From positions 1-22,172 of IMG/VR virus record IMGVR_UViG_3300046538_000155: DNA of 22,172 bases. The stretch is one strand, 5' to 3'. Source of the DNA: a virus. Below are positions 3,528 through 11,521 of this stretch, piece by piece. The notes beneath the pieces are model-generated. The model had not been told where the DNA came from. It did not search any database and saw nothing but the letters and a program-made list of their open reading frames with translations. Both the position numbers and the translations under genes were made by a program. Positions within the stretch are counted from its first letter, which is position 1. Each line of letters begins with the position of its first letter.

Positions 3528-3571
3528 CATGCACCTCCTACTGGGGCAGATAGGATTGGGCGTTCTTTCAT
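3527..3571 (-). CDS. Possible 14-codon mini-ORF bridging two early genes
   Basis: The frame ATG (3571) to TGA (3527-3529) encodes MKERPILSAPVGGA. GGAGGG stands four bases before its ATG. It overlaps the upstream 251-residue gene's stop (ATGA) and overlaps the next gene's start region (ATGATG). It may be a translational relay carrying ribosomes from one gene to the next rather than a functional peptide. I cannot show that it is conserved. Confidence 0.3.
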   Translation of the reverse strand: MKERPILSAPVGGA

Positions 3572-4323
3572 GCTGCCCTCCGCTTCGGCGCTGCCGGCAA
3601 GTCCATCCAGTCCGTGACCTTGGCCGATTCGATCGGCGTGGCATCGGCATATCGCCAGACGTCACCGTCGCGGACGCCGGGCCACACTTCTTCATCCGAG
3701 AGCGCGAGCAGCACCAGGGTATCGTCGTCCGGCAGACGTTCGCTTACAGAAATCCAGCTTTCAAGTGCCGCGCTGGGTTCAGCTGGCTGCGTCGGCGGAG
3801 TGCTGGGATTGGGCGACAGGCCCAGGTATTCGCGCCATGGCACCTTGGCGCCATCAACCATGAAGCCCCACGAGCCGCGGTAGCGTCCGGTGATGAACAA
3901 GGTCCACGCCCCTCCGGGCACCAGCGAAGTGATGCGGTGATACTCGCCGTACTTCAGCGTCGCCGTGTCGCCGGCCAGCCTCGTATGGCGGTCGTAAAGA
4001 CCTGCCTGGCGGCGCTCTTCGGTGTAGCCGCCCTTCAGCACAATGGTGCGTGCGTTCCACGGGTGGTCGTGCAGATCACGGTCTTGGTCTGGCAGAACAA
4101 TGTGGTGAATGCGAACCGAGAGGGGGAAGCGCCAAGGCTTCCGGTCTGCGCCCGATTTGCCGGTATCAGGGTAGGGATTGAACAGCCACGCCCGGTCCAT
4201 GTACAAGCGGCCTTCTTTGATAATCGGGCTGTAAGGCGTGCGTTGGGCACGGCGGATTATCCAGTCGGCCACAGCTGGGTGGGTGACAATTTTTGCGATG
4301 ATGGTCCAGAGGGTTGAGATCAT
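3568..4323 (-). CDS. Cupin-like phage protein with C-terminal DUF551 domain
   Basis: The 251-residue product appears to be a fusion. The N-terminal part (about 30-170) resembles cupin-like phage proteins: RIHHIVLPDQDRDLHDHPW (His-rich strand at 72-89), VLKGGYTEER at 95-104, GEYHRI at 126-131, and WTLFITG at 140-146, with PWREYLG at 162-168. The histidines at 85, 87 and 129 could bind a metal. A Pro/Ala-rich linker (171-187) leads to a DUF551 domain starting WISVSERLPDDD (190-201) and ending in VTDWMDLP. Function is unknown for both. ATG 4323 is preceded by AAGGA at six bases. It is a member of the early-left operon, coupled to the mini-ORF downstream by ATGA. Confidence 0.75.
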   Translation of the reverse strand: MISTLWTIIAKIVTHPAVADWIIRRAQRTPYSPIIKEGRLYMDRAWLFNPYPDTGKSGADRKPWRFPLSVRIHHIVLPDQDRDLHDHPWNARTIVLKGGYTEERRQAGLYDRHTRLAGDTATLKYGEYHRITSLVPGGAWTLFITGRYRGSWGFMVDGAKVPWREYLGLSPNPSTPPTQPAEPSAALESWISVSERLPDDDTLVLLALSDEEVWPGVRDGDVWRYADATPIESAKVTDWMDLPAAPKRRAA

Positions 4324-8029: not shown

Positions 8030-8058
8030 ATTAAACACCATGTTTATCTAGAATGCAA
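8030..8058 (-). promoter_or_regulatory. Putative early-left promoter (PL)
   Basis: Read on the minus strand there is TTGCAT (8058-8053), a 17-base spacer and TTTAAT (8035-8030), matching the sigma70 pattern 3/6 and 5/6. Predicted start is near 8023, about 25 bases before the first early gene. The same architecture, nearly base for base, occurs at the right promoter (10576-10604). The proximal operator lies in the spacer and -10, so bound repressor would block polymerase. Confidence 0.65.
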
Positions 8059-8070
8059 ACACTATGTTTA
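8031..8070. promoter_or_regulatory. Left operator (OL): two repressor sites
   Basis: Two copies of a TAAACA-N3-TGTTTA palindrome lie 24 bp apart, centre to centre: 8032-8046 (perfect) and 8056-8070 (CAAACA-CTA-TGTTTA, one mismatch). The perfect copy is identical, on the opposite strand, to the right-operator copy at 10588-10602. These are the expected binding sites of the S24-type repressor and of the Cro-like protein. Confidence 0.75.
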
Positions 8071-8100
8071 TTAAATTGCGTTTCGCAAAGTACATGAGCG

Positions 8101-8125
8101 AAAAAAAACCCGCACGAGGCGGGTT
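8101..8125 (-). terminator. Rho-independent terminator of the repressor-kinase-HIRAN transcript
   Basis: On the minus strand the arms AACCCGC and GCGGGTT (8119-8125 and 8107-8113) enclose a five-base loop and are followed by a run of eight T. It lies 20 bp after the HIRAN gene and separates the lysogenic transcript from PL/OL. Confidence 0.85.
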
Positions 8126-8144
8126 GTACAACGCGTCAGCAAAA

Positions 8145-8852
8145 TTATCGGACTGAGACGAAGATGTAGACCAAAGGGCGTCCAGACTGCCCGTTCACTC
8201 GTTCGACGACTCCGGAAACCGAGTAACCTTTTTTGAACCATGTACAGAATGAGGGCGCCTGTGCGCGATCCACAAAGCCGATGCGACTCCCATTGTAGAA
8301 AATTGCTACGGCATGTTCGTCGTGCGCATTATCCTTATCTCGCTTGAAAACAACGGGATCGCCGATGTAGAGATCATCTGCGGATACTGCGGCCTGGTGT
8401 CGAAAACCGGCTACTTCGATGATTAGCTCAAGCGGAGGACGAGCATCTGAGAAGTCAGGATAAAGTTCAAAGGAGTCACTTGGCAACTTGGCGTTCGTGT
8501 ACCCCAGTAGTGCCATATCAGGAAGTCGCGTCATCGCAGGTAAGCGGTGACGTCGAAGGTATGTTTCGAAATCATCCCTTTTCCGAGGAGGTAATCGACG
8601 CAAGAACGAGTCGAGCACCCCTGACGAATGCTCGCGGTTCTTGATGGGGAATGCTGGGTAGCCAAGGAACCCGTCATCTTTTGCATGTTCATAGTCCGCA
8701 GTGCCCGTGAGATATCGAAGCGTGACCGGTTCATCAGGCGAAGGCTGCAATATCTCGGCCACGACACGCCTACTCGGTGACTTCTGTACAAGACCGGCGC
8801 GCCAGACAAGTAGTAGACGCGCGGGCTCGACGATGTGTTCAATCTGATTCAT
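8145..8852 (-). CDS. HipS-like plus HIRAN-like two-domain protein, partner of the HipA-like kinase
   Basis: The 235-residue product has two parts. Residues about 29-132 resemble the small N-terminal subdomain of HipA (separate as HipS in HipBST): VVAEILQPSPDEPVTLRYL, then FLGYPAFPI, then SFLRRLPPRKRDDFETYL and a closing SDSFELYP. Residues about 143-235 look like a HIRAN domain: LELIIEVAGF, GDPVVFKRDKDNAHDEHAVA, then SRIGFVDRAQA. HIRAN domains, as in HLTF, bind 3' single-stranded DNA ends. The ATG overlaps the kinase stop (ATGA), so both proteins should be made together. Local GC is visibly lower than in the phage core, suggesting separate acquisition. I infer a modulator or DNA-sensing partner of the kinase; both domain assignments are by eye. 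Confidence 0.7.
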   Translation of the reverse strand: MNQIEHIVEPARLLLVWRAGLVQKSPSRRVVAEILQPSPDEPVTLRYLTGTADYEHAKDDGFLGYPAFPIKNREHSSGVLDSFLRRLPPRKRDDFETYLRRHRLPAMTRLPDMALLGYTNAKLPSDSFELYPDFSDARPPLELIIEVAGFRHQAAVSADDLYIGDPVVFKRDKDNAHDEHAVAIFYNGSRIGFVDRAQAPSFCTWFKKGYSVSGVVERVNGQSGRPLVYIFVSVR

Positions 8853-9793
8853 CCGAGGGCCGCCATGATTTTCTGTTTACGAATTCCTAGCAGTTTAATA
8901 TACATGGTTTTGCGCGCGCGCGTTAGAGCAATCGCAAGCGGAAGTGTGCACAGATAGTCGAGGATTCTCTCTAACTCTGCCATGTCGAACTGCGCAATTT
9001 TGTCCAGCATGAACATGCGCAACTGGGGGTGCATGTGGATAAGCTTCACCAATAATTCGATGTGCCTGACGCCGCCCCCATCACCTTTCTGCCAACGGAT
9101 GTGATGAGTGCCTTTTTCGACATACCGTAGGTAGTTCGCGTCGGTCCAAGTCGCAACATGCTCAGGGAATCTCTCATGCCCTAGGCTAGTCCCGTTGTCG
9201 AACAGTGGAGCTAGGGTCACGTGGGCCATATTGTTTCGCTTAACGCCCAGGTATCCCCAGTTATCTTGGTGACGGTCTGTGTTTCCGATTAGCGCATCAA
9301 AAAGGAATAACTCAGCCCATTTTTCTTGCCAAGAGTCGTCGCTAATCCTTAGCATCGAAAACGCTCTGGCCAACGTCTGCACTGCGTGGAAATTGTGAAG
9401 TTCGCCACGTTTGCGGTCAAATTCCGGTATTAATGCCTGCATGTAAGACCCCCCAGGCGTAAAGATGGCCTTCCCATCCTCGTAGAACCATTCAATAAGG
9501 GCGGCGCAATCGTTCTCAGCGCTGTTTGTGGCTACGAACGCTGGAGGTACTGTGACGCCCAGCAAACAACCCACTTGATACGAGACGACCTCACCCCAGA
9601 GCTGGTCAGGATACTTTTTGTTTGATCGTTTATAGAGATAGCGGCGCCCTTGGCGGATAAATGCATGAGGGCAGTTTGCTGGTGGGAAGTATGCGTCTTT
9701 TGACCGCGCCCCTTCCGGGTAGGACGCATAGAGGTCGTCTGATTGCCATGTGGCCACATCAACGACTACATCTTGCAGCTTCGCTTCGATCAT
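8849..9793 (-). CDS. HipA/HipT-like serine/threonine kinase
   Basis: The 314-residue product is close to the length of HipT kinases that lack the HipA N-terminal subdomain. Kinase features are visible: GARSK (28-32) like the HipA GAQPK loop, a candidate ATP-binding Lys55 in YLYKRS, Glu68 in the following helix, the catalytic loop GNTDRHQDN with Asp173 and Asn178 (five apart, as in HipA), and the metal-binding Asp199 in LFDNG. HipA-type toxins phosphorylate aminoacyl-tRNA synthetases (GltX for HipA, TrpS for HipT) and stop growth; the target here is unknown. It starts 24 bp after the repressor gene, is translated into the HIRAN partner by ATGA overlap, and is lower in GC than the phage core. 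All key catalytic residues are present, so it is probably active. Confidence 0.85.
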   Translation of the reverse strand: MIEAKLQDVVVDVATWQSDDLYASYPEGARSKDAYFPPANCPHAFIRQGRRYLYKRSNKKYPDQLWGEVVSYQVGCLLGVTVPPAFVATNSAENDCAALIEWFYEDGKAIFTPGGSYMQALIPEFDRKRGELHNFHAVQTLARAFSMLRISDDSWQEKWAELFLFDALIGNTDRHQDNWGYLGVKRNNMAHVTLAPLFDNGTSLGHERFPEHVATWTDANYLRYVEKGTHHIRWQKGDGGGVRHIELLVKLIHMHPQLRMFMLDKIAQFDMAELERILDYLCTLPLAIALTRARKTMYIKLLGIRKQKIMAALG

Positions 9794-9817
9794 TCTCTGC
9801 TCAAGTATTAGGTTGGA

Positions 9818-10528
9818 TCAAATCTTGTCCGTCTCCCGACGTACGACGCGGCCGACGATGATGCATTCGCCGTTGCGGCACCGCTTGCGCGCGTACTTGC
9901 GCTGATCCGAGTTGTCCGATGTCAGCCACCAGTCACCTTGATCGCGAGCTAGGCGTTTGATGACCGCCTCACCCTCGTAGTTGAACGCGTATACGCCGCC
10001 GTCCTCCATGCGAATGTCAGCCGTGTTCACGATCACTTGGTCACCCTCGTAAAGACTTGGTTCCATGCTTTCGCCCTTCACTGATATGGCGATGAGTTTG
10101 GCGGGATAGTAGCCGTTGCGGTCCACCCAGTTCTTGGGCACACTCAGCTTGCTTCCATCGTGAATGTCGGGGATGGTCTGAAATCCGGTAATTCCGGCCT
10201 GGAGCTGCAGTTTCACCTTCTGAATTTGATAGAAACCTGGATCACCGTCTTCCGCGATCACGACCTTGGTGTAATTGGAGATGCCAGGCCCAACCATATC
10301 GCCCATACCGTCGCGAAGCCAGATTGCGTTGCAGCCGATGATCTCTTGCGCGCTGAGCAGCCCTTCGTTGGAAATGCCGCGCACTTCCCAGTTGTTGACG
10401 CGCTGGGGAGATATGTTTAGCAATTTTGCAATCGCACTTTGCCCTTCTGCCTTGCACAGCTCGGCGGCGGCTTGGTAAAGGCGCGTCATCTGTGGGTGCA
10501 TACCTACCCCATTTTCGGTTTCTTTCAT
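9818..10528 (-). CDS. CI-like repressor, HTH plus S24 (LexA-type) autocleavage domain
   Basis: The product maintains lysogeny and is expected to self-cleave when RecA is activated. With ATG 10528 it has 236 residues. An HTH spans about 22-55 (SAIAKLLNISPQRVNNWEVR). The C-terminal S24 domain has Ser154 in GESMEP and Lys191 in AVIKRL, 37 residues apart as in LexA; Ala111-Gly112 is a candidate cleavage site. The longer frame to 10594 runs through operator sequence and is unlikely. ATG 10501, with GGGG upstream, is an alternative. Transcription would start within the right operator (a PRM-like arrangement) and continue into the kinase and HIRAN genes 24 bp downstream, so those genes should be on in the lysogen. 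Confidence 0.92.
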   Translation of the reverse strand: MKETENGVGMHPQMTRLYQAAAELCKAEGQSAIAKLLNISPQRVNNWEVRGISNEGLLSAQEIIGCNAIWLRDGMGDMVGPGISNYTKVVIAEDGDPGFYQIQKVKLQLQAGITGFQTIPDIHDGSKLSVPKNWVDRNGYYPAKLIAISVKGESMEPSLYEGDQVIVNTADIRMEDGGVYAFNYEGEAVIKRLARDQGDWWLTSDNSDQRKYARKRCRNGECIIVGRVVRRETDKI

Positions 10529-10548
10529 GGCGCCAATGATCCTCGAAT

Positions 10549-10602
10549 TAAACAAGATGTTGTTAAACGCGGCGTTTGCGTTTTTCATAAACATGGTGTT
10601 TA
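10549..10602. promoter_or_regulatory. Right operator (OR): three repressor sites between cI and cro
   Basis: Three sites of the TAAACR-N3-YGTTTR type are present: 10549-10563 (TAAACA-AGA-TGTTGT, two mismatches), 10564-10578 (TAAACG-CGG-CGTTTG, one mismatch) and 10588-10602 (TAAACA-TGG-TGTTTA, perfect). The perfect site overlaps the rightward -10. The weakest site is next to the repressor start, where a minus-strand TTTAAT (10551-10546) without a good -35 could be PRM, consistent with repressor-activated autoregulation as in lambda. Confidence 0.75.
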
Positions 10603-10604
10603 AT
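10576..10604 (+). promoter_or_regulatory. Putative early-right promoter (PR)
   Basis: TTGCGT (10576-10581), a 17-base spacer and TTTAAT (10599-10604) give a predicted start at about 10611, the A of the cro ATG. Nearly the same sequence makes up PL on the other strand. The perfect operator 10588-10602 covers the spacer and -10. Confidence 0.65.
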
Positions 10605-10610
10605 GCTCGT

Positions 10611-10928
10611 ATGGATGAGAAAAACCAAATTCAGGCCGACAAGGAGCTTATCGAGTCTTTGGGTGGCCCTACACGGCTGGCAGAAAGACTTGGCTTCGAC
10701 AAAACGAAGGGTGGCGTGCAGCGCGTCCAGAATTGGATGACGCGCGGTATCCCGCCGAAGGAGAAGCTGGCGCGTCCGGATATTTTCCTTCAGCAACTGG
10801 GTCGGCGCACCTCCGATCCGATACCCCAACCAGGTCATGGCGGCCGTCAGCCGCCAAAGCCGCACAACATCTTGGACACCGTGCCGGATAGCGCCGTGAT
10901 GTCCCCAATTCCCGCGCCGAAGGCCTGA
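10611..10928 (+). CDS. Cro-like helix-turn-helix protein
   Basis: The 105-residue product begins MDEKNQIQADKELIESLGGP and has an HTH-like segment TRLAERLGFDKTKGG, then RVQNWMTRGIPPKEKL. This is the Cro/YdaS pattern in which a short HTH protein starts the rightward operon opposite the repressor. The C-terminal tail is Pro-rich and probably unstructured. No Shine-Dalgarno sequence precedes ATG 10611 and the predicted PR start is at the same place, so the mRNA may be leaderless. In-frame upstream ATG 10593 lies inside the operator and is unlikely. It probably competes with CI for the TAAACA-N3-TGTTTA sites. Confidence 0.8.
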   Translation: MDEKNQIQADKELIESLGGPTRLAERLGFDKTKGGVQRVQNWMTRGIPPKEKLARPDIFLQQLGRRTSDPIPQPGHGGRQPPKPHNILDTVPDSAVMSPIPAPKA

Positions 10929-10929
10929 C

Positions 10930-11022
10930 ATGGCCGAATCGACGCTCGGCGTGGATGTGCCAGTCGTAGGTCGTGAAACGGAAGTATTGGCGCACATGGA
11001 AACCCTGTCCTTATTTGTATGA
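10930..11022 (+). CDS. Possible 30-residue ORF after cro
   Basis: ATG 10930 begins one base after the cro stop and has AAGG six bases upstream. The frame runs 30 codons to TGA at 11020-11022; the peptide starts MAESTLGVDVPVVGRETEVL. It is too short for routine calling. Context and start site support translation, but no family is recognised. Confidence 0.35.
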   Translation: MAESTLGVDVPVVGRETEVLAHMETLSLFV

Positions 11023-11077
11023 CATCAGTTTGCCTGTTAGAAATTTTGTTTACATCATTCTTTTTAGGGTCTTTCGT
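11023..11077 (+). promoter_or_regulatory. AT-rich leader before the CII-like gene, possible weak promoter
   Basis: This AT-rich gap has TTGCCT (about 11030-11035), a 17-base spacer and CATCAT, each 4/6 to sigma70. It could be a weak promoter for the CII-like and replication genes, or an untranslated leader of the PR transcript. Confidence 0.25.
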
Positions 11078-11521
11078 ATGAACGCACACGACGCTTTCCA
11101 CCAGACAGTACATAACGCGCCGGGCGGCCATGAAGCGCTGGCGGCGCGCATGAACATGTCGGCGGCGGTATTGCGTAACAAGGCCAACCCGAACGCCGCC
11201 GGCAACGTGGTCGCGCTGCGCGATGTCGAGAACGTGATGGGTCTGACCGGTGACTACAGCGTGCTGCACGCCCTGGCCAAGTCCGTTGGCTTCGTATGCG
11301 TGAAGGTGACGCAGGACATGCCGGTCTCGGACGTGGCGCTGCTGGAAATCGTCACGCACGCCTGGACCACGCACGCCAATGTCGGCGTGGCAGTGCATGA
11401 AGCCCTGGCCGACGGCCGCATCGAGCGGCACGAAGTAGAACGCGTCAAGGATCAGGTCTTCCGCGCCACGCGTGTTCTGCACGAGCTGGTCGCCCGCATG
11501 GAAGGGATGGCTGAGAAATGA
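11078..11521 (+). CDS. CII-like phage regulatory protein (CP76 family)
   Basis: The 147-residue product matches the Phage_CP76/CII-like family. It begins MNAHDAFHQTVHNAPGGHEA and has the diagnostic LAARMNMSAAVLRNKANPN, where an HTH-like helix meets the conserved NKxNPN end. The middle and C-terminal helices continue to KDQVFRATRVLHELVARMEG. ATG 11078 is favoured by family start and an AGGG about nine bases upstream; the longer open frame to 10973 has no support. Family members regulate the lysis-lysogeny choice or early transcription. The stop overlaps the primase-helicase start as ATGA, so the two are coupled. Confidence 0.88.
   Translation: MNAHDAFHQTVHNAPGGHEALAARMNMSAAVLRNKANPNAAGNVVALRDVENVMGLTGDYSVLHALAKSVGFVCVKVTQDMPVSDVALLEIVTHAWTTHANVGVAVHEALADGRIERHEVERVKDQVFRATRVLHELVARMEGMAEK

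Follow-up and report, generated by a model that had tools for sequence, protein, structure and literature searches.

Background

The closest described relative of the locus reported here is hipIN, a family predicted by Gerdes, Baerentsen and Brodersen in 2021 (PMC8262856), in which a HipA-homologous kinase of about 279-321 aa without N-subdomain 1 has a HipS-HIRAN protein as the normal partner of the HipI family. Those authors proposed a model in which the kinases of hipIN and hipL respond to the DNA ends or replication intermediates of a phage by becoming active and aborting the infection; the neutralisation of HipI by HipN is a prediction in that paper as well (PMC8262856). A second reference point is hipBST, whose three genes form an operon that includes a HipB HTH regulator of its own and encodes HipS as a stand-alone protein. 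In terms of position, RexAB of lambda and P. putida offers a comparison: downstream of cI, a protein that binds DNA is paired with an effector that arrests growth (PMC12894663). The gpA-gpQ hotspot of P2 was shown by Rousset et al. to hold antiphage systems (PMC9122126), and the main text of that paper contains neither the word HipA nor the word HIRAN. PADLOC lists PDC-M03, a computational candidate for phage defence. In the open-licence PubMed Central literature we found no mention of PDC-M03 and no experiments on hipIN or hipL. The hipIN family has already been predicted; what appears to be undescribed in this literature is that it occupies the rex slot in a temperate phage.

Organization of the immunity region

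The window, meaning the whole stretch of DNA analysed, is a 22,172-base viral record. It carries an integrase (1043-2374, phrog_1), early-left genes on the minus strand, the immunity region and a primase, together with terminase subunits, a portal and a head/protease protein, and judged by this gene content it represents a temperate tailed phage. A tRNA/tmRNA search of the window returned no hits. Among the early-left genes, one ORF (3568-4323, minus strand) joins an N-terminal match to a PHROG labelled as cysteine dioxygenase (3.5e-43) to DUF551.

The immunity region includes a CI-like repressor with HTH and S24 peptidase parts (9818-10594, minus strand; Pfam Peptidase_S24, 3.4e-20; phrog_4 transcriptional repressor, 3.1e-38), a divergent cro-like HTH gene (10603-10928, plus strand; phrog_8008 DNA binding protein, 3e-17, scanned on the ORF 10527-10928) and a CII-like activator of the Phage_CP76 type (10973-11521, plus strand; Pfam, 3.5e-35; phrog_101, 4.1e-31), the start position of which is uncertain. 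The right operator, OR, occupies 10547-10604 between cI and cro, with sites near 10548, 10563 and 10587. The 18-mer ATTAAACACCATGTTTAT at 8030-8047 has an exact inverted copy at 10587-10604, beside the cI start, and 100 shuffled controls gave 0 matches. This repeat belongs to a left operator, OL (8030-8071), with two palindromic sites, AAACACCATGTTTAT and AAACACTATGTTTAT, forming a 41-nt inverted match to OR; the OL and OR flanks are 80% complementary across 41 nt, and on these repeats we regard the identification of the left operator in the window as firm.

Two genes co-oriented with cI, hipI and hipN, lie in the interval from cI to OL, which is the lambda-style rex slot. A sequence-only reading of this DNA had already placed a kinase and its partner there, and the inverted repeat of ATTAAACACCATGTTTAT and the 25 bp that separate hipI from the end of the repressor at 9818, both genes being on the minus strand, bear this out. 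The ATGA overlap that it described is likewise present, with ORFs at 9793-8849 and 8852-8145 (both minus strand) sharing positions 8849-8852. So is the closing terminator, an intrinsic hairpin 3' of hipN (8107-8125, minus strand) with a 7 bp stem, a T run and a fold z of -2.1; the window-wide scan found 3 terminators where 3.2 were expected, overall not above chance. Hairpins also occur just 3' of hipN in four homologous loci (L097, L112, L106 and L081), and the terminator of the window is homologous in the related L139. The promoter scan of the window, itself close to chance, placed no promoter-like site between the genes, and this, combined with the spacing, suggests that cI, hipI and hipN are co-transcribed.

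Identity of the two proteins

The first gene, hipI (8849-9793, minus strand), encodes a predicted HipA-fold Ser/Thr kinase of 314 aa that consists of the core kinase only (Pfam HipA_C, 1.3e-8; PDC-M03A, 2.1e-38). The nearest solved structure to the HipI model (pLDDT 87) is H. pylori CtkA (3akj; Z 27.2 across 274 residues, ~18% identity), followed by HipT (Z 17-20; Legionella HipT, Z 19.8) and HipA (Z about 18), and the structural match to CtkA and HipT is closer than that to HipA. The model aligns along the full length of HipT and CtkA, the best alignments with HipA begin only at HipA residue 122-125, and in this model HipI is without the N-subdomain 1 of HipA. Lys55, Glu68, GNTDRHQDN and FDNG are invariant in an alignment of 13 homologues; the HipA-type active site is complete by alignment and by model, in line with the earlier claim of intact motifs. 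Ser31, which comes after GAR in the window, falls in a column that is variable among the 13 homologues and has no conserved Ser/Thr.

The second gene, hipN (8145-8852, minus strand), encodes 235 aa with a HipS-like and a HIRAN domain (PDC-M03B, 8.7e-23; model pLDDT 92), as had been read from the sequence. Residues 10-134 match stand-alone HipS (Legionella 8ezr, Z 10.6; E. coli 7ab3, Z 9.8) and N-subdomain 1 of HipA (3tpe, Z 9.9). Residues 139-235 match HIRAN structures (lp_0118, Z 14.5; HLTF, Z about 12), the DNA-bound HLTF HIRAN structure among them, and the Pfam HIRAN match at residues 144-222 (3.8e-9) agrees with the structural one. The HIRAN motifs of HLTF align with those of HipN as GLRYY/GFRHQ, NPYDKNAI/NAHDEHAV and VGHL/IGFV, so that among the subset of contact residues compared several positions are kept. 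Since the motifs are conserved only in part, DNA-end binding by HipN is not assured.

The profile and structure comparison that the sequence-only reading had proposed thus matched HipA/HipT, HipS and HIRAN alike. A RexA fold was not among the structural matches listed for either model, the lists being filled by HipA, HipS and HIRAN folds. A RexB-type membrane effector with four transmembrane helices was not found either: both models match soluble folds, and the 19-residue hydropathy maxima of the pair (1.56 and 0.96) indicate no obvious membrane protein.

Because the partner shows the two-domain composition of HipN described by Gerdes et al. (PMC8262856), we identify the pair, by its predicted folds and motifs, as hipIN, comprising a HipI kinase and a HipS-HIRAN HipN, and not as HipBST with a domain added. 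The kinase, at 314 aa, has the core Hip kinase motifs conserved and N-subdomain 1 absent, and the gene downstream of it encodes a HipS-like N-terminal and a HIRAN C-terminal domain. In PADLOC, the adjacent matches to PDC-M03A and PDC-M03B together make up PDC-M03, and a PHROG profile, PHROG_26212, corresponds to a fused kinase-HipS-HIRAN form.

Homologous loci and their neighbourhoods

After removal of known duplicates, our survey of viral and bacterial contigs comprised 109 homologous loci. HipN was the adjacent, co-oriented neighbour of the kinase in 92/109 loci and fused to it in 15/109 (107/109 in total), and the two loci without a partner both stop at a contig end; such a constant partner fits a regulator that acts on the kinase. 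The upstream neighbour genes were not constant, and most loci had no repressor adjoining the pair. The sequence-only reading had framed the pair as HipBST, with the phage repressor in the place of HipB and HIRAN as an extra domain of the S partner, and neither part of this framing survived the survey, given the scarcity of repressors beside the pair and the HipS-HIRAN architecture of the normal partner. HipBST membership was rejected on three grounds, namely that the kinase gene comes first, that HipB is missing and that HIRAN is constant in the partner; a HipB-like gene as part of the module was rejected as well, in view of the variable upstream genes.

An S24 repressor lies directly upstream on the same strand in the window (gap 25 bp), L106 (15), L112 (27), L081 (84; Pseudomonas sp. 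PDM18) and L102 (104). L112 and L102 escaped a search that used only the window repressor as seed, and a multi-seed profile recovered both. HTH repressors also occur near hipIN in L097, L096 and L104, with intervening genes between them. In L097, operators of the same OL/OR family flank the repressor, one extra gene, the kinase and HipN, with a shared operator-segment score of 25 versus a shuffle maximum of 12. The search that found these operators did not find flanking operators in L081, L102, L106, L112 and L104, so operator-bounded placement applies to the window and L097 only. In two different phages (L097:6289-6909 and L104:3555-4193), homologous ORFs of ~210 aa separate the repressor from the kinase; they show a weak BRCT match (0.011 in L104) and may represent a third component of the module. 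In L119, an S24 repressor gene (1885-2493) is convergent with the pair across a gap of 26 bp, so that the phage-repressor neighbourhood of hipIN is also found in the opposite orientation.

Other members are located elsewhere. P2-like phages and prophages carry the module, fused or split, 4-20 bp 3' of a DEDDh exonuclease gene, between gpA and the portal gene, in the hotspot described by Rousset et al. (PMC9122126). Of 5,426 complete E. coli genomes, 61 contain it at ≥99% identity. Among isolated phages, Escherichia phage 899 (L169, PV533660.1) carries the fused form with the exonuclease upstream. The DEDDh 3'-5' exonuclease (Pfam Rv2179c-like, 6.8e-57) precedes HipL or the pair in L114 (5954-8158), L169 and the 61 E. 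coli genomes, and its presence beside a putative DNA-end-binding domain suggests joint action. Genes of the hsdS type lie 3-10 bp upstream of hipIN in L023, L024, L026, L028, L043 and L082, with Pfam Methylase_S confirmed for four of the six; in several Proteobacteria hipIN stands behind such genes of type I restriction-modification operons as if wired to the restriction system. As for plasmid carriage, we found only distant matches with about 24-29% identity.

In the kinase tree, the window, L096 and L097 group together (support 97), and repressor-linked members appear in at least two places, namely the window group, a Pseudomonas-type group and L112 on a long branch. It is likely from this tree that hipIN entered repressor-linked slots more than once, although the support values are also compatible with one origin.

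An exchangeable cassette between cI and OL

The repressor of the related L139 is 84% identical to that of the window. At the DNA level, homology between the two extends through OR and cI (81%), stops at about window position 9840, and returns at 8123-8004, that is, at the terminator and OL (76%); a break near the cI end followed by a return at the terminator and OL argues that the slot is variable and that the pair occupies it as a swapped cassette. The slot contains an 83-aa ORF in L139-L141 and a 174-aa zinc-ribbon protein in L142-L143; L144 has no gene there, its OL lying 122 nt beyond cI. A survey of this slot, as proposed in the earlier reading, yielded repressor-linked kin, the operator-flanked L097, and relatives that hold other genes or none.

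A local GC drop had been taken to suggest a separately acquired cargo. The drop itself is real (kinase 0.515, GC3 0.58; hipN 0.528, GC3 0.53), but cI shares much of it (0.544, GC3 0.68), so the limits of the cargo cannot be read from GC alone, which was rejected as the sole proof of separate acquisition. The L139 alignment break is the stronger evidence, and on it the acquisition claim holds.

Cargo of other kinds at L142:3553-4077, L145:5478-5894 and L139:5807-6058 consists of zinc-ribbon proteins with hydrophobic segments and the family-less 83-aa ORF. It is operator-bounded in L139 and L142 (in L145 it is only downstream of cI), and these genes are candidates for other exclusion functions.

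Proposed function

A role in exclusion or persistence, as suggested by the sequence-only reading, is a reasonable inference, and location favours exclusion, since members of the family occupy the rex slot, the P2 defence hotspot and hsdS operons. We think it fairly probable that hipIN in the rex slot is a lysogen-expressed superinfection-exclusion (abortive infection) module in which HipN holds HipI inactive until its HIRAN domain is triggered. In a quiet lysogen, hipN would be translationally coupled to hipI via the ATGA overlap, and the HipS-like domain of HipN would bind HipI and keep the kinase inactive; by fold and family, this part should restrain HipI as HipS restrains HipT. When another phage replicates, HIRAN may bind stalled-fork structures or DNA ends that are free or single-stranded, whereupon the complex would open. 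The freed HipI would then phosphorylate a host target that is essential, an aminoacyl-tRNA synthetase by analogy (the known kinase targets are GltX for HipA and TrpS for HipT), and translation would halt before the invading phage matures. The position behind cI would let lysogens express the genes and would switch them off when the prophage is induced, which would limit self-targeting. Kin in the P2 gpA-gpQ hotspot and directly behind hsdS, together with the PADLOC listing as a defence candidate, support an antiphage effect, with the counterpoint that the PADLOC candidates PDC-M63AB and PDC-S04 gave no defence when tested (PMC12409345).

The same genes might instead serve maintenance, as a toxin-antitoxin pair that arrests cells losing the prophage and plays no part against other phages. 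A HipS-like partner with a HipA-type kinase is indeed a toxin-antitoxin composition, here carried on a mobile element, but relatives that follow hsdS within type I restriction operons or occupy a hotspot of phage defence fit this poorly, and the constant HIRAN domain would have no obvious role; we consider it unlikely. Even more doubtful is that hipIN tunes the lysis-lysogeny decision or the induction of its own phage, sensing DNA damage via HIRAN. Its place in the immunity region adjoining cI has a precedent in RexA, reported to bias the lambda switch (PMC11077077), yet relatives in the P2 late region and in hsdS operons have no such switch at hand, and close sister phages hold other genes or nothing in the slot. 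A HipA-like contribution to persistence or stress tolerance, whereby HipI slows host growth under stress and raises lysogen survival, would agree with the HipA fold and the intact active site, but HipI is nearer to CtkA and HipT than to HipA, N-subdomain 1 is missing and the neighbouring genes are defensive rather than metabolic, which makes this explanation quite improbable. That hipIN is recent cargo without function in this phage, as its GC and GC3 below the phage core and the differing slot contents among relatives might indicate, is the least probable, considering that, with the nearest relatives at about 53% identity, both reading frames are uninterrupted and every catalytic residue is retained, and that the same arrangement recurs in different phages.

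What the rex slot would add to the family prediction, if the exclusion reading is right, is an expectation of when the genes are on, namely with cI in the lysogen and off at prophage induction. Cassettes that are bounded by cI and OL and cleanly removable offer natural tests of the 2021 hipIN/hipL antiphage prediction; further ready ones are coliphage 899, with its fused form and exonuclease, and sister phages in which the slot is empty or filled differently.

Comparison with known systems

Like hipBST of E. coli O127 and HipS-HipT of L. pneumophila, the pair has the kinase fold (Z 17-20) and the HipS fold (Z about 10). It differs in having no HipB gene, in placing the kinase gene first and in a partner that bears a HIRAN domain, and the three-gene operon with its own regulator and stand-alone HipS is not seen in the window. 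CtkA (3akj), in turn, has no HipS-HIRAN partner in its structure. HipL, as in PHROG_26212 and Escherichia phage 899 (PV533660.1), has the identical three domains in the same order and also occurs in phages, but it is one polypeptide, has a DEDDh exonuclease gene upstream and sits in the P2 gpA-gpQ hotspot, not in the rex slot. The closest agreement is with hipIN (PMC8262856), a two-gene operon in which the gene for a HipS-like plus HIRAN protein comes after that for a small HipA-fold kinase lacking N-subdomain 1; the window pair departs from it in sitting in the cI-to-OL slot and apparently using the promoter of the repressor, a location not described in the available text of that paper.

With rexAB of lambda and of P. 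putida prophage P1 (PMC12894663) the pair shares a co-oriented position downstream of cI, and with that of lambda also the position before OL. No fold similarity to RexAB was found among the structural matches listed, and the effector in the window is a kinase with no obvious membrane protein at its side; by analogy, both systems put a DNA-binding-type protein beside an effector. Tentatively, and with somewhat less than even confidence, we propose that temperate phages have repeatedly placed a HIRAN-gated kinase in the rex slot, as a lysogen-only exclusion system with a DNA-end-sensing antitoxin that frees the kinase when a foreign phage replicates, convergent in function with RexA-RexB through unrelated proteins. 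If true, a HipA-type kinase would be gated by a DNA-end sensor, and the rex slot would serve defence in general, holding sensor-effector pairs that are unrelated to one another.
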